Shown here: one piece after another, positions 33,311 through 41,937 of the stretch
How the letters are laid out: each line of letters starts with the position of its first letter
Position numbering within the stretch: the first letter of the stretch is position 1
From: Saksenaea vasiformis B4078
Lineage: Eukaryota; Mucoromycota; Mucoromycetes; Mucorales; Saksenaeaceae
NCBI GenBank assembly: GCA_000697055.1
Contig: JNDT01002300.1
Coordinates: 1 to 64,000 of the forward strand
Length of the DNA stretch: 64,000 nt
Direction: 5' to 3'
The notes under the pieces: generated by a model
Told to the model about the DNA's origin: nothing
The model's input: only the letters and a program-made list of their open reading frames with translations
Databases searched by the model: none
Program-made: the position numbers and the translations under genes

Positions 33311-34339
33311 ATGGCCGAATATCAACCCTTACCCAAATATTCCCTTGATCGATCCAAAGACTCCAACGGGAACGATTATGATGAAGAGCTGGCTCTCGGC
33401 TTTGTTGGAGAAGAGCCTGTCCCTCGTATTCCACATCGCCATCATCAAAAAGATCTTAAACGACATGTGGAGGAACATTTTTCGCGACCAGAACTTGTTC
33501 GAGATTGCATTCTAGGTCTATCTGACGGATTAACTGTCCCGTTTGCTCTCGCAGCAGGGCTATCCAGTCTGGGTGATACCCGAATCGTTATCTACGGTGG
33601 TCTAGCAGGTAAAGGGATACAGAAATGATCACAGGAGGACATGTTAGAGCTAAATATAAACACAATGACAGAACTTGTTTCTGGAGCCATCTCCATGGGA
33701 CTTGGTGGCTATTTAGCCGCAAGATCTGAAGCAGATCATTACGACACAGAGCGACGTCGTGAAGGTAAAGTCAGCGTCACCTGCTACTTGCGGATGATGT
33801 ACTTAATCTGTTCAATCAGAGCATGAGGTGGCCATGTATCCGGATGAAGAAGAAGAGGAAATTGTTGAACTGTTCGAACCTTATGGTTTAGATCGTGCAT
33901 CCATTGAACCAATGCTTGTCCGATTTCGACAGAACACAGAAAAATTTGTGGATTTTATGATGAAATTCGAGTTGAACCTTGAATTACCTGATCCAAACAG
34001 GAGTTGGGTACGTGAACGAAGTACACGCGTGATAGCGAGAAACTTAAAATTTCCTAGATTTCTGCATTAACTATTGGTACCTCCTACCTGATAGGAGGAC
34101 TTATCCCGCTGTTACCTTACTTTTTTATCGCGAGTTCAGTAGATGCCTTATTTTCATCCATCTTCGTTACTTCTTTGACATTGCTCGCTTTTGGTTATAT
34201 CAAGAGTATTTATCTTCGACCTGCCCAGGCTATCGTCGGTGCCATTCAAACATTGGCCATAGGCGCTGTGGCTGCCGCGAGTAGCTACGCTATGGTAGCA
34301 TTTGTCAACCATTTATCACCCACTCCCAGTACATCTTAA
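33311..34339 (+). CDS. CCC1: vacuolar iron/manganese transporter, CCC1/VIT1 family
   Basis: Four exons: 33311-33608, 33672-33764, 33820-34007, 34058-34339; 286 aa. Family landmarks in order are RDCILGLSDGLTVPFALAAG (TM1 with the metal-binding Asp), ELVSGAISMGLGGYLAARSE (TM2 with Glu), a cytosolic acidic metal-binding hairpin (EEEEEIVELFEPYGL ... FVDFMMKFELNL), then SALTIGTSYLIGGLIPLLPY and two more membrane spans, AIVGAIQTLAIGAVAAASS being the last. The protein should move Fe2+/Mn2+ into the vacuole, probably by proton exchange. Length is close to yeast Ccc1 and plant VIT1. The frame is open upstream of 33311 but that stretch is a T-rich leader. Confidence 0.95.
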
Positions 34340-35037: not shown

Positions 35038-35087
<50 letters not shown>

Positions 35088-35401
35088 AGACAGACAGACA
35101 GACAGACAGAGACAGACACACAGATAGATACACAGACGACGTCAGTACAATCCGGTACATAGATCATGCAGGCTAAAAGACATATGAATGATCCTGTATA
35201 GATGATCAATTGACATTCTTAGCGGGGATGTTTTTCACGCGTTCCTTTAAAGTTTTATCATTTCAGGTCGTCTGAAAACTACTGTTTATCGAATTCTTTT
35301 TGACGCTACTCTCAATAGATCTCGCTTCCATCAAGATGTCCAATTTGCTCTACGGAACGACTGAACATGCGCTATTACTTCATCCATTTTTCGTCAGATT
35401 A
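34340..35401. other. intergenic with microsatellite
   Basis: No gene seen apart from the CA/GACA microsatellite listed separately. It leads into the minus-strand repeat copy at 35402. Confidence 0.45.
35038..35135. repeat. (CA)n/(GACA)n compound microsatellite
   Basis: About 20 CA units are followed by six GACA units and further CA/GATA-like remnants. Simple-sequence repeat; the ORFs over it (Cys/Val-rich on minus) are artefacts. Confidence 0.95.
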
Positions 35402-35728
35402 TCAATTAACTTGCATGAGGTTGGTCCCTCCGACAGAAAGAGGATTTATCCGAGCAGCGTAAAAATAATTCGTTTTAGTAAATGGAATAATCGCAGCGTT
35501 GAATGAACGCAGGAAGACATAATTCAAAATGCAGAGTTCATTGTAAATAACGCTAAATCCTGCATTTTCTAACTGGGCACTGAGAGAATCAATCGCGATA
35601 AACAGACTTGGTACACTTCGAAGTCGATGCGAAAAGAACTGCTTCCCAACGTAAAATTTATTTGGAGCTGATGCTAAATAATATAAGCTGATGCCAAAGT
35701 TATACGAAAATCCAGTGATTCTTATCAT
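35402..35728 (-). repeat. decayed dispersed repeat, copy C (open frame)
   Basis: Minus-strand 108-codon open frame containing ASAPNKFYVGKQFF and AIIPFTKTNYFYAARINPLS, parallel to ASAPDKVYVG and SVIPFTNRERSFM in copy B. It retains the longest open frame of the family but has no recognised domain. It ends about 40 bp from the stop codon of the viral-type RdRp, so the RdRp sits against repeat DNA. Confidence 0.5.
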
Positions 35729-35765: not shown

Positions 35766-37499
35766 TTAAGTGCCGTCTGTGGTAGTACTTGGTAGGACGA
35801 CCAGACGTACCCATTCCTCATAGGGAATACGTCCACACTCTGGTACCTCCATACCACGATGACCACGCAAGAACCACTGCAAAAATTCAGGTGCCCATTC
35901 TGTCGGCGGCGGATCCTCCATTAATCTTTCCAGCCAGTTCAAATAGCCATCAAGCCACTCTCGCATTTCCTTATTTCCCGCGCAGTCATACCAGTGACCC
36001 AGAGCACGCATGTACGAATACCGTATTTTTTCTTCCTTCACTTTCGGTAGACGAAATCTGTCCGGTTGGAAGTACAGTTTTAAATAAGTTTCATGCGAAG
36101 GTCGAAAGGGGATGACAGAATCCTGGTGATAGGCAATGCCATCTTCAACGTTAGCCTCTCGAAAGTATTTTCCTAAGAACTGGATCCCTTTGAATTGATC
36201 GTCGAGAAGGGTGTCTGTGTAGAAGCTTTTGGACCCGCTCCAGTCAATACCAAAATGCTCCATTGCCACCCTAGCCAAGCCATCGCTACAGATGGAATGT
36301 CGGTCCCGAACAGCAATAATATTGTCATCCCCAAGGCTACCAACCCAGACTTCCGAAAAGACTTCCTCCGGTGACCGATGGGGATTGAGTAGCAGTAGAG
36401 ACGCATAGGCAATAATGAGCGTGATAATGGACTGTAACAACGAGTTATGTGGATGTCCGGAATTAGATCCGACGTGTTTTCGGAAGCACAGACCGTCATC
36501 CCGGTAGAGTACCGGTTCCACCATTCCTTCGTATACAAAGTTCCAATAAGCATCGTACTTCGCATCGGCACCGTCTTGGAACTGCCGTCGAACGACGTCG
36601 ATGGCCATTCGCACCATCCAACCATTGATGTTGGCATCAAATTTCTTAGCATCCAGACAGTGGTAGCGATCATCCCCACGCAGACGATCAATGAAACGGT
36701 CGCACCCGCCGTGCCACCACGACATGCCAAGTGCAATAGGATACTTGTCGTCAAGATACTCTTTGGTCAGCACCATTTCTGTTACACCATTCAGTTTAAG
36801 GTCGCGATGCGAAGTCATCAAAATCATTCGGCCGGCGCAGGGCTCCTTTCTATGAGTCTCTTCAAGGACATGTTTGCCCTTGCCTCCCATACGAACACGA
36901 TGCGGCTCCACATGAAAGCCATCCATGAGTTTGTCGTACGCGAATTCTGCATCTTTCTGAGCAAGTGGGTCCGCAAGTATTCTTTTGTTGAGATTTTGCA
37001 AGGCATAATCAATACCAGCAAACTTGCGCGGTTCAAATGGAACCTCGGCGAGCTTCTCTCGTCCCGGAAATGGTTCCTTGTTAGATATATCCATGATCGA
37101 TAGCACATGTTCGTAGGCTCGCGTAAGTTCTTCGATTTCAGGACGTGGCTGATCAGGCCGGTCAAACATTTTTAGATGAAGCATTTGGGTATATGTATTT
37201 CCCCTGACGAAAATGTAGTCATTAGGATTGATGTTGGAGATAGGTGGGGGGCTAACGTCGCTGTAGCAAGCAACAAAACTGTCAATTTCCCCAAGCTCAG
37301 GTTCCATCGAAAGTTCTTTCACGTAAGCCACATCGATATCTTTCACAGTGAAGTGAGGATAGCTAGCGGCAAATCGTCGCTTATCCACTTCCGATAAGAT
37401 ACGTTGCCGTGAACGGTTCCGGGATAGAACGACTGCTGTACGTAAGAAATCCAATGCGTGTGGCGGTAAGTCGTCCCACGCTATGTTAAAAAAATCCAT
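35766..37499 (-). CDS. endogenous viral-type RNA-dependent RNA polymerase (partiti-/picobirna-like)
   Basis: One uninterrupted minus-strand frame, 577 aa from ATG at 37499, about the full size of a partitivirus RdRp. Palm motifs are present in order. Motif A: CLDAKKFDANI with Asp283 and Asp288. Motif B: GSNSGHPHNSLLQS (Ser347-Gly348). Motif C: VGSLGDDNII with Gly390-Asp391-Asp392 (bases 36324-36332). Conserved-looking finger residues precede A. Motif B has Asn where many positive-strand polymerases have Thr. Nearly all neighbours have introns and this ORF has none, as expected from a captured viral RNA. The frame is open further upstream to 37697, but that part is a pyrimidine-rich leader coding for Phe runs, so 37499 is preferred. 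It is not a cellular QDE-1-type RdRp, which has a DbDGD motif and a different fold. Whether it is expressed, domesticated or recently inserted cannot be seen. It lies 286 bp behind the ULP1 stop, same strand. Confidence 0.88.
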   Translation of the reverse strand: MDFFNIAWDDLPPHALDFLRTAVVLSRNRSRQRILSEVDKRRFAASYPHFTVKDIDVAYVKELSMEPELGEIDSFVACYSDVSPPPISNINPNDYIFVRGNTYTQMLHLKMFDRPDQPRPEIEELTRAYEHVLSIMDISNKEPFPGREKLAEVPFEPRKFAGIDYALQNLNKRILADPLAQKDAEFAYDKLMDGFHVEPHRVRMGGKGKHVLEETHRKEPCAGRMILMTSHRDLKLNGVTEMVLTKEYLDDKYPIALGMSWWHGGCDRFIDRLRGDDRYHCLDAKKFDANINGWMVRMAIDVVRRQFQDGADAKYDAYWNFVYEGMVEPVLYRDDGLCFRKHVGSNSGHPHNSLLQSIITLIIAYASLLLLNPHRSPEEVFSEVWVGSLGDDNIIAVRDRHSICSDGLARVAMEHFGIDWSGSKSFYTDTLLDDQFKGIQFLGKYFREANVEDGIAYHQDSVIPFRPSHETYLKLYFQPDRFRLPKVKEEKIRYSYMRALGHWYDCAGNKEMREWLDGYLNWLERLMEDPPPTEWAPEFLQWFLRGHRGMEVPECGRIPYEEWVRLVVLPSTTTDGT

Positions 37500-37784
37500 T
37501 TGATAAAAAAAAAAAAGAAAACAAAAAAATTGAAAGTTGTTAACAACAAAGAAAGAAAGTACGTAGTAGTAGTGCAAGAGTTGGACGTGGGTACTCGTTT
37601 TTGTATCGGAGTTAGTGCCGAGCTTACACCAGGTGCACAGCTCAGAGAATAGGATGATCGTTTGTTTCATGCTCATCTCTCGCGCTGTAACACGCATGTT
37701 CGTTCCGTAAACAATATCATGCCCGCATGAAACTTTATGCTGAATACAGACGATATTACTCCAAAGATCATTTGCAGAACATAA

Positions 37785-39399
37785 CTATAAGCTTAGTTTC
37801 TTTTTAACTATATCAAGTACCATCCGTCGACGGATGGCAACCATATCTTCCTGGGTAAAATCAAACGTCTGTTGCCGAGAAAGCCGTTCTGCAAATGTAC
37901 ACGTGAAGACACCGCAGTCGGACATATTTTTCTGACGCGGAATATCCTGGGACCACTGCATTAAAATGTAGTTTCTTTTTTTTAAGGTTGAGACAAACCT
38001 TTGGTACGTTGAAGCTCCAGTCGCTTATGTCTAATGGTGTCTTTTTCTTGTCCATATGTTCTTCTGTAAGATACTTGAACAATAACTGACCAAGGATGCA
38101 GTGAGCTTTCTTTCTCATTTTTCTTTTCTTTTGCAGTTCATGTCATCGTTACCTTGACGTTGTAGTCGTGGTGACCACCCATGGAATCGTATATTTCTAC
38201 AAGTTTCTTCTTCATGTGTATCACCCCTAATGTCCAATGGTAGGACTGATTGATCGGCACAAGAACTAAATCTTTTGCGAAGATATCAACCTAACCAATC
38301 TGTTCTCAGCCACTGATGGCGCGTCAGCTAGATTGTATCACCTTCTTTGTCCAACGTCTAATCTTGGTATAGCCGGCATCCTTAAAAGTAGAAAAAAAAA
38401 AGGTACTGAAACAATGGATCGACGGCATCTTTTCCGCACCGGTCTGTGCACGATCCGACAGTAACTCCATGTAAAAATTGATGATCTGATGATGTATCAT
38501 GTGTCAACCTATGGAAGGTAAAAAGAAAGACCGCAGTTACCTCATCGTTTAACCATGTCTCGGGGAGTAACTTGTAGATGTCTTTGTATTCAACTACTGC
38601 CGTCTTTATCTGTGCTATCAAACCAAATTGTCCCTGTTTCAGGTAGGTATCCACCTACAAAAGTAATTCATTAGAATGAATGATGTCAATCTTTTTGGGG
38701 GTTGTTTACAAGTTGTTCTTCTTCTGCGGTTAATGGCGGAGGTTTCGCTTGTGGAATAGCTGCTTTGTCGTAGAGTTCCTCAAAACGTTGACTCCTCTTG
38801 GTTATATCAAACGTCTAACCCATTTTCTGCTTTAATAAACTAATGGAGGCGGTGACTCTTCTTACGTCGTAGAGATTCAAAACGGACTCTTTCGCACGGA
38901 GTACCTGTCAACAGAAAGCTATCAGATCCACTCCGTGTCCAACGACTACGGTGTACCCACCTCTTTCCTCCACTCATTCCGGTCATGTTGTGGTTTAGAT
39001 TTTGGTTTCTGATTCGATTCTAATGTCAGCCCTTGCAGCTGGTCTAACAGATCGTCCACCGAGCTTTTTGTTGTTTGGTCACTGTTGGCATCGTCATCGG
39101 GCATCCTCGGTAGCGATTCATCTTCTTCTGGTGGCTCGCTCTCTGTGCAACAGCGATCGGTTTGCACACTTTTGCTTCCGGGTTGGCGCGCATGGTAGTA
39201 CCGCTCGTACATGTTGCGGCACAACAGTGAGACTCGAAAAGGGTCCTTGTTGAATATGGGTGAATGCTTGTAATTTACGTTCTCAGGTTTTGTCCTCGAA
39301 ACTAAACTATTATCTGCAGGGAATATGAGAGGTACTGTGTGCAAGACTCAAGATACCTTGACCGGACGAAAGAAACTGGGATGTGTCTCCTACTTTCAT
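37785..39399 (-). CDS. ULP1: SUMO protease, Ulp1/SENP (C48 family)
   Basis: Nine minus-strand exons: 39399-39357, 39313-38961, 38904-38866, 38814-38710, 38654-38541, 38485-38342, 38290-38153, 38109-37999, 37955-37785; 405 aa, all phases fit. The N-terminal about 150 residues are unstructured and acidic. The C48 protease domain starts PPLTAEEEQLVDTYL, then LPETWLNDEIINFYMELL. Catalytic residues are visible: His284 in SYHWTLGVI, Asp301 in YDSMGG, oxyanion Gln357 in IPRQKN and nucleophile Cys363 in SDCGVFTC. It should process the SUMO precursor and remove SUMO from conjugates at the nuclear periphery. Several introns are 43-55 nt. The start codon is the first ATG giving an in-frame exon 1 of 14 codons, so the true N-terminus is the least certain part. 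Confidence 0.93.
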
Positions 39400-39890: not shown

Positions 39891-40190
39891 CGATGGTTGA
39901 AGTTTCTCGTCTCGCTATTAATTATCAAAAATTTGGGCAAAAAGTCGTGGACTACAAATTTGGCGGTATATATATCGGATAAACCGTTTGCTTATTTTAC
40001 TGACCATGAACAACTTTTTATGCTGTCTATATCAATTTCGCGTCCATCGAGGGGGCCGCGTTGACGTAAGTAGTGTATGAATTTGTTGCCAACTTATGTA
40101 TTAATGAACTCATACTTGGTTCTTTTCTTAGCGTAAAAGTGGCTCTTCATAGACGCAAAAATTATATAGATGAGCATAAAAGTCTGATCA
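39890..40190 (+). repeat. decayed dispersed repeat, copy D
   Basis: A plus frame reads AYFTDHEQLFYAVYINFASI then EGAALT and a stop; the NFASIEG block and ATTTCGCGTCCAT are shared with copy B. About 100 bp further on, GTGGCTCTTCATAGACGCAA and TTATATAGATGAGCATAAA match 26208-26250. The preceding strand reads K-x-L-G-K-K-S-W-T-T-N-L-A, without known family. Confidence 0.45.
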
Positions 40191-40314
40191 AAACTTTTAT
40201 TTAATTTTTTAAATGGCTGTGAGCGCGGCGCTAACTAAGCATATCCGCTCTAGCCCGGTCTTGTAGTTAAAGCAGAAAAAAAACCCTTGCGAGCAAAGGG
40301 AAAAAAAGGCAAAG

Positions 40315-41389
40315 CTAAAGTGTGCGAACTATGGAGGGGGACGTGAGGGGAGAAGTGGAGGACTTGGGGAGGTGGAGCATATCCATGGTGGTTAACCAGC
40401 CATGGGAGACGAAGAGACGGGCAACCGCGCGCTTCACGCTATCCTGCAAGGATGCAAGTGCGCGAAGGTGGCGGTTCCGTTGGCAGTGGAGGGCAATCTT
40501 CTGGCGTCCTTTGGGAGGGAGCGAGGAGTAATCAGGGTCTCGTAGATGTGTGGGATCGGCGGGGCCAAAGTTGGTGATAGTGGGGATGTTGGCTTGCTGT
40601 AGGTGATCTGTGAGTTCGGGCAGGTATCCTTCATGGACAAGGAGGCCAACGACGTGGCGAGCGGAAAAACCGAGATCGAGTATGCGAGCATTGTTGATAC
40701 CGATCATGCGTAAGTACTGGGGATTTCTGAGCGTGGTAGTCGTTTCTTTCATGGGATGTACAGGTACTGGAAACGTGACGGAGTGTTTTCAGGCGCTTGG
40801 AAGAATTGGCTTGCAGTGAGTGCATCGATGAGCGGTGCAGATTTCTTGGGGGCGGAGCTGGGAGCTTGTAGAGTGGTTTTGCGGGAAGGGGAAGTGGGTC
40901 GTGTTTGCGAAATTTTTCTGGCTGATGGGGTAGACGTACCATCCTTCCTGGCTGATACGCTGGGTGTGGGGGCTGGTGGTGTGGGTTGTGGTTTGCTTAG
41001 TGTCTTTGACACTGGAGAAGTTGCAGTTGGCGGGAATGGTTCAGATGTTACTGGAGTCGCTGATGCTGGTGGTGAGGGCGATGAGCAAAGTTGCTTGGGA
41101 ATGGGGGGCAATGGACGCGGTGAACACCGAGCAAGTGGTGAAGCGTGGAGCAGTAGGGGTCTTGATGGGATGGCTTTCAAGTTCGTTGACACGAGCTTGA
41201 AGAGTTATCAAGTTGTCTTTGTTGGCGGGCAAATGCTTTCTTGTATGAGTCGCGGTCCGCTTGGGCCTGGCGTAATTGTTCTCGAAGTTTTTGAGCTCCA
41301 GACTGTTGTGGAGGTTTGAACATCCAGGCTGGATCGCCGCGACGTGCATTGAAGACATCGCGCGGAGGGGTGAGTTTCTTATGGGTCAT
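40315..41389 (-). pseudogene. frameshifted LINE (non-LTR retrotransposon) ORF1 remnant
   Basis: Three overlapping minus-strand frames read as one protein broken by frameshifts. 41389 to about 41210: MTHKKLTPPRDVFNARRGDP, then a coiled-coil-like LREQLRQAQADRDSYKKAF. About 41210-41050: ITLQARVNELESHPIKTPTA. 41190-40749: Pro/Ser/Thr-rich linker. 40752-40315: YLRMIGINNARILDLGFSAR, RHVVGLLVHEGYLPEL and HNR-like CQRNRHLRALASL with AVARLFVSHGW. The last block resembles the C-terminal domain of gag-like ORF1 proteins of fungal LINEs. At 40750 the two frames overlap at TGATG-like context (stop TGA inside ATGA), so a shift there is needed to continue. Very few stops within each frame means the decay is recent or that base-calling indels are involved. 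No reverse transcriptase is present. The G-rich plus strand sets this stretch apart from its neighbours. Confidence 0.55.
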
Positions 41390-41937
41390 GGCTACGAAAA
41401 CCTTGTGTAAAGCATAAAAGTCTGTTCAATAAACAGTATGTGAGATCGCAGGGTAACTAATTCTCCTTGGTTGCCATCTGTTTCTGGTTTTCTGTTGGTA
41501 TGTGCGATATTGTGGATGATAGGTCAAATAAAGCAATACATCGAGAACCAAAGATATACGTGAGACTCCTGTTTATTCGGATTAAGAATAAAAAGGATGG
41601 AGCTACTTCCCGCTACTGCTCTTGGTTGCGGATACCCGACCACAAATATAGAATTATGAACTGTAAATTAGACAATGCATTTGTATATCTCAGATCTACA
41701 GGCAAATTTGTATTGTAAAAAAGAAGAAAAGAAGAAATTGATATATATATATATATAAATAAAAAGCGTCAAGCCAAAAAGGAGAAAAGAAGACCCTAGC
41801 CAAGGCAAACGAAAAAAAAAAAAAGATACAGGCTATTATACATAAGTTAGGCTACTTGTAGATGAAAGATAATGAACAAAGTGGGAAGAGGGATGGGAAA
41901 ATCTAATAAATAGTGTCTAACAAAGGAAATAAAAAAT
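41390..41937. other. 3'-flank of SREBP, A/T-rich
   Basis: Contains an (AT)n run near 41740 and A-runs near 41815. It is mostly the downstream region of the minus-strand SREBP gene. No gene seen. Confidence 0.45.

Follow-up and report, generated by a model that had tools for sequence, protein, structure and literature searches.

Results

A viral-type polymerase gene between host genes

The window, by which we mean the whole stretch of 64,000 nucleotides of Saksenaea vasiformis DNA analysed here, contains a polymerase (RdRp) gene of viral type together with two host genes and several repeats (Table 1). The RdRp frame runs on the minus strand from an ATG at 37499 to a TAA at 35766 with zero internal stops, and the same frame stays open upstream as far as an ATG at 37697, which would give a version of 643 aa. 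The stretch adjoining the ATG at 37499 on its upstream side is pyrimidine-rich, and the extension between the two ATGs is taken as untranslated. An earlier note, made from the letters of the window alone, had described an intact, intronless endogenous RdRp frame at 35766–37499; we confirm this frame, and its coordinates are exact, to which we add the strand. That note had also named the lack of RdRp motifs in a profile search as grounds for refuting its claim; the protein matches the Pfam family RdRP_1 (E 1.2e-18, 67.6 bits with a cut-off of 23.9) and no other Pfam family at E up to 1. RdRP_1 is likewise matched by all 20 aligned family members, which are the window protein and 19 homologues.

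Table 1. Features of the RdRp locus (positions are those of the window)
Feature	Position	Strand	Remarks
VIT/CCC1 transporter gene	33311..34339	+	convergent with the RdRp gene; ends taken from the sequence
(CA)n-rich microsatellite	35038..35121	.	same side as VIT
Dispersed repeat, ~212 bp	35280..35491	.	on the VIT side of the RdRp gene, ~275 bp from its stop
Curvulavirus-type RdRp gene	35766..37499	-	577 codons, intronless; Pfam, homologues, structure model
RdRp motif C, GDD, residues 390–392	36324..36332	-	20/20 rows; coordinates computed and checked on the sequence
RdRp motif B, SGHPHN	36444..36461	-	G348 and N352 in 20/20 rows
RdRp motif A, DAKKFD (D283, D288)	36636..36653	-	both D identical in 20/20 rows
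Conserved block GRMILMTSHRDLK, residues 223–235	36795..36833	-	family alignment
ULP1-type protease gene	37785..39344	-	adjoins the RdRp gene upstream; Peptidase_C48 E 1.5e-41, exons joined manually

The draft assembly (38.7 Mb, 666 contigs) holds the RdRp gene as a single copy when searched with the gene's own DNA, and the locus is also the sole match for the RdRP_1 profile, for the protein of Cryphonectria parasitica bipartite mycovirus 1 (CpBV1) and for the Mortierella protein, each searched separately. In codon usage the gene scores below 13 of 15 chosen host frames yet within their range, on a measure of low power, since two antisense frames equal or exceed it.

The ULP1 gene has several introns, an approximate start and a stop taken from the sequence. 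On the other side, the best matches of the VIT protein (88% and 84% identity) both come from Apophysomyces, PF01988 was found in its relative P0021, and the next 24 matches listed, from genera of the Mucorales, have 65–79% identity; these values would place the host in Apophysomyces or close to it. The ~212-bp repeat recurs with 71–80% identity in at least 39 other scored places (196 candidates). Thus, the placement of the locus between ULP1 and repeat DNA in the earlier note is correct, with Peptidase_C48 on one side and the (CA)n tract and dispersed repeat on the other. Nothing was recognised as a gene between RdRp and VIT, where a 108-codon frame at 35402–35728 partly overlaps the repeat. 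No clear target-site duplication was found among repeats of at least 12 bases and no poly(A) trace of retrotransposition was visible by eye at the locus, both being traces that fade with age; a tRNA scan found none. The homologues and the host-gene flanks bear out the claim that a nuclear locus carries an RdRp of the type found in dsRNA viruses, and the gene is an endogenous viral element in chromosomal DNA between host genes.

Beyond ULP1, the window contains a further dispersed element (39996–41410). With 40 of 305 candidates scored, the assembly gives at least 42 further match rows for it, including five matches of at least 660 bases at 78–84% and one more long match at 74%. It holds a 145-codon frame (40315–40752, minus strand) with no Pfam match.

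Polymerase motifs and predicted fold

Motifs A, B and C follow each other in order with their catalytic residues present, as had been claimed from the sequence of the window. The conserved block at residues 223–235 we take to be the finger/motif F region. Another GDD at residues 275–277 is not motif C. Twelve checked positions are all kept in the window protein and in both Apophysomyces copies. Motif B had been called unusual, and the parent virus lineage therefore perhaps undescribed. At position 347, 18 of the 20 rows have S and two have T, and 18 of the 20 carry [ST]GH, so that this part of the motif is ordinary in the family; special is only the P that follows, which among the 20 rows is confined to the window protein and its two Apophysomyces counterparts. 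Because [ST]GH is this common and the P belongs to Apophysomyces-type copies, motif B is nearly ordinary and the hint at an undescribed lineage falls.

A structure model computed from the 20-row alignment has an RdRp fold (mean pLDDT 88.4, pTM 0.88). Searched against solved structures, the single RdRp sequence gave no match, while the 20-row profile matched the RdRp chain 1khv (E 2e-11) over a region spanning motifs A, B and C. When the model was compared with predicted viral proteins, the 605-residue RdRp of a Sclerotium rolfsii dsRNA virus ranked first, Curvularia thermal tolerance virus ranked 6 and 24 and Curvularia virus 2 ranked 23, with partiti-like proteins appearing from rank 7 onward.

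Relationship to curvulaviruses

The protein search, in which ~8000 candidates were scored, returned at least 19 homologues, the weakest at E 1.2e-77. Two are from Apophysomyces (~68–69% identity), one from Phycomyces blakesleeanus (48%) and one from Mortierella (40%); the remaining 15 are viruses or other contigs with 35–44% identity, among them Podosphaera virus A, CpBV1, Phlebiopsis gigantea curvulavirus 1 and Lactarius rufus RNA virus 1. Searching the proteins again with a seven-row alignment, likewise with ~8000 candidates scored, yielded 16 matches at E ≤ 1e-20, none of them new, and a scan of viral contigs with the family alignment gave 140 pattern matches, none of which was confirmed as a relative.

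One homologue (P0010) carries the curvulavirus name, CpBV1 (P0008) is treated as a curvulavirid in the available text of PMC12711003, and the other homologues are placed with these two by the tree. On this sequence comparison, the nearest virus relatives of the window protein are curvulaviruses (Curvulaviridae, order Durnavirales). The earlier assignment to a partitivirus type does not hold up, as no partitivirus name occurs among the 19 listed homologues and curvula-type structures outrank partiti-like ones; the trees held no partitivirus row. CpBV1, Podosphaera virus A and Phlebiopsis gigantea curvulavirus 1 share 41–44% identity with the window protein over 86–89% of its length and resemble it in motifs and approximate length, but they are viral whereas the window gene is chromosomal. 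The RdRp of the curvulavirus HetRV6, not among the listed homologues, can be likened to it by published description only. The second genome segment of curvulavirids codes for a dsRNA-associated/capsid protein, as the accessible part of PMC12711003 states.

The cellular RNAi RdRP (PF05183) presumably carries out the same reaction, RNA from RNA. As an identity for the window protein it was discarded, the protein having no match to the PF05183 profile. PF05183 matches lie on four other contigs of the draft (C442, C441, C598 and C238).

A locus shared with Apophysomyces ossiformis

In A. ossiformis, VIT is EC973_005581 and the RdRp homologue EC973_005582. The consecutive tags and the equal contig size (212102) indicate the same RdRp–VIT neighbourhood as in the window, with synteny judged on the VIT flank from these tags and sizes. 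This speaks strongly against an assembly chimera, makes two recent insertions improbable and points to one inherited locus in both species. With the same VIT neighbour and RdRps 68% identical, the very recent capture considered in the earlier note finds no support. In a second Apophysomyces, BC1034, the RdRp is not beside VIT by tag (DFQ28_010219 versus DFQ28_006143), and the two lie on different contigs, no longer than 33 and 14.5 kb; the copy may have moved or be a paralogue, or the assembly may be broken here.

Trees were computed from the 19 homologues and the window (rows P0001–P0020), with and without the long-branched P0019. The window, the two Apophysomyces and the Phycomyces copies form one clade (100/99) with no sampled virus inside. 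Within it, the window and BC1034 pair at 88/89 (91/90 without P0019), and neither of the alternative pairings is rejected (p 0.076 and 0.226). The three Apophysomyces-type RdRps are mutually equidistant (67–68% identity), and the VIT tree does not separate the three species and so offers no host-tree agreement. In the explanation we favour, the RdRp segment of a curvulavirus would have entered the genome as a DNA copy in a common ancestor of the window species and A. ossiformis, if not earlier; judged from the tree alone, integration probably preceded the split from Phycomyces.

Constraint on the protein

The window and A. ossiformis RdRps differ at 177 of 556 aligned residues, with length differences near both ends only. 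A decaying copy would be expected to differ at roughly a third everywhere. We classed the alignment columns by their variation among 12 virus rows and found that 5 of the 94 virus-invariant columns differ, as do 10 of the 85 with two letters, 41 of the 133 with three or four letters and 111 of the 223 with more (invariant versus most variable, Fisher 5e-16). When nine other virus rows defined the classes, the three Apophysomyces-type pairs differ at 6–7 of 104 invariant and 49–51% of the most variable columns, and three virus-like control pairs of 67–70% identity at 4–6 of 103–104 and 51–54%. The control pairs come from P0013, P0014 and P0016, contigs of ~1.9–2.0 kb that we take as virus segments from their size, as we do for P0005, P0006, P0009, P0011 and P0012; P0017, P0018 and P0020 are called endogenous-like from their place in the tree and, for two of them, from contig size.

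With this virus-like profile, the gene has changed as a working, replicating virus polymerase does. Taken by itself, the profile could equally fit virus evolution before separate captures; it is because the locus is shared with A. ossiformis that the differences are placed after integration. At the protein level, the comparison indicates purifying selection on the gene since its integration.

The absence of stops points, less strongly, the same way. Without selection, the 0.053–0.060 stops per missense change predicted from the gene's codons give 9.4–10.5 nonsense changes for 177 differences, and none was seen (Poisson 8e-5 to 3e-5), a figure softened by ascertainment, since the window was chosen for its open frame and databases list intact proteins, and by those of the 177 differences that lie at the N-terminus, where the predicted genes may fail to match up. 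Neither issue touches the column test.

The Phycomyces copy has changed at 15 of 94 virus-invariant columns (three by gaps), compared with 8–9 of 94 in the Apophysomyces-type copies, and its protein is without 21 residues within window residues 478–510. Either this copy has been maintained less well, or its gene may be wrongly predicted.

Number of captures

A single clade of the four Mucorales copies and the Mortierella copy was rejected (AU p 0.0027, or 0.0006 without P0019), in a test that rests on one named Mortierella sequence, perhaps outside the set of Myers et al. Uniting all eight endogenous and endogenous-like rows was rejected less strongly (p 0.024, or 0.005 without P0019). According to the available text of Myers et al. 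2020 (PMC7482067), sequences from two Phycomyces species, Dissophora, Lobosporangium and Mortierella form a clade, read there as one endogenisation before the Mucorales/Mortierellales split. Contrary to this, our tree comparisons speak for separate captures of the Mucorales and Mortierella copies.

Two metagenome members of the family (P0018 and P0020) lie on contigs of 13.4 and 7.5 kb, as against ~2 kb for the virus-like ones, and group with the Mortierella copy in the tree. They are likely further endogenous genes.

Discussion

A host gene probably selected as a polymerase

We consider it likely that a viral RdRp has become a Mucorales host gene, inherited and selected as a polymerase. The earlier note had left the choice between a recent capture and a retained function; the sequence comparisons lean towards retained function and away from recent capture, and the gene probably remains useful to the fungus. 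Because catalytic residues, fold and constraint are all kept, a primer-free polymerase is the simplest reading. The available text of PMC8473416 describes primer-independent initiation of RNA synthesis by the RdRp of the orthocurvulavirus HetRV6, with ssRNA of both viral and foreign origin as template; by analogy with this enzyme in vitro, the window protein would be made and would still copy ssRNA in the same way. Its products would be dsRNA made from viral or cellular RNA and then cut by the fungal Dicer/Argonaute machinery. The draft contains Piwi matches on two contigs, cellular RdRP on four and two Dicer_dimer matches, one of them weak, so that dsRNA made by the RdRp could feed RNAi. That the gene is put to antiviral or regulatory use through dsRNA is a guess, doubtful on balance and the least certain part of the proposal. 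Transcripts of the Phycomyces and Mortierella relatives are reported in the part of PMC7482067 available to us.

The main rival to the polymerase reading is that the protein blocks related viruses by engaging their RNA or partner proteins, with catalysis unneeded. A captured capsid protein in Debaryomyces, described in the accessible text of PMC6166632, provides a precedent. The catalytic residues would then be free to change, yet 12 of 12 checked positions are kept and constraint equals that of the virus-like pairs, and we regard this explanation as unlikely.

Less likely still are recent independent captures, in which each fungus integrated its own circulating curvulavirus and the copies are virus-like for that reason. 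The Apophysomyces-type RdRps are equidistant (67–68%) although the VIT proteins are 85–90% identical, the constraint profile equals that of the virus-like pairs, and the BC1034 copy does not adjoin VIT by tag, all of which would fit. The common VIT neighbour, however, would require two insertions at one site, and the copies form one clade without a sampled virus inside.

A locus that served only to supply antisense or small RNA directed at related viruses, so that the nucleic acid alone mattered, could draw on the RNAi parts present in the draft; this reading leaves the intact frame and the amino-acid constraint over 177 differences unexplained, and is very improbable. Viral cDNA joined to fungal DNA in assembly, the chimera that the earlier note had named as its refuting case, or contamination could account for the single copy in a 666-contig draft, but we give such an artefact hardly any credence because the same RdRp–VIT neighbour pair occurs by tag in the independent assembly of another species.

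Returning to the inherited, selected polymerase, we tentatively extend it to the proposal, for which we would put the chances a little short of even, that some Mucorales run, alongside their RNAi polymerases, a second, unrelated and still catalytic RdRp of viral origin that serves the cell, for instance by supplying RNAi with dsRNA, and was captured separately from that of Mortierella.

Precedents and meaning

The kind of gene is already known, as endogenous curvula-like RdRp genes have been published for Mucoromycota. Those described in the available texts of PMC7482067 and PMC12548735 belong to the same virus group and host phylum, are chromosomal and keep the RdRp domain. Myers et al. (PMC7482067) name Phycomyces, whose copy sits in the clade of the window gene here, and speak, in the text at hand, of a seemingly novel fungal gene with a function still to be tested. 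In the portion of the paper available, the Durnavirales finds of Brown & Firth 2025 (PMC12548735) include 71 sequences from Mucoromycota, and a single Mortierellaceae clade takes up 64 of these. Apophysomyces is named in neither main text, as far as these were accessible; the seven other Mucoromycota sequences of Brown & Firth may include Apophysomyces-type copies. The accessible portions of PMC7339291, PMC9603141 and PMC12711003 contain no Apophysomyces-type RdRp gene. Relative to the available content of PMC7482067 and PMC12548735, we add the locus shared between species, the profile of constraint and the rejection of a common capture with the Mortierella copy.

Two further precedents can be likened to the window gene, both known to us from partial texts. 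eEBLL-1, derived from a bornavirus L gene in Eptesicus bats (PMC4865735), is an intact captured RdRp with polymerase motifs and signs of selection across species, but stems from a negative-strand virus in an animal host and is compared by description, not by sequence. The totivirus-derived fungal genes (Taylor & Bruenn 2009, PMC2805616) are likewise dsRNA-virus genes in fungal chromosomes under purifying selection; in most of them, residues required for viral function are missing, whereas the checked ones are kept in the window protein.

Genes captured from RNA viruses are widespread, yet not many are known to persist as likely working polymerases. The virus-like placement of differences in a chromosomal gene is a reason to expect enzyme activity in the fungus, and it makes testable the question of what use a cell has for its own viral replicase. 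Should further sequences bear out the two captures, there would have been repeated recruitment, with at least two viral replicases taken up in one phylum.
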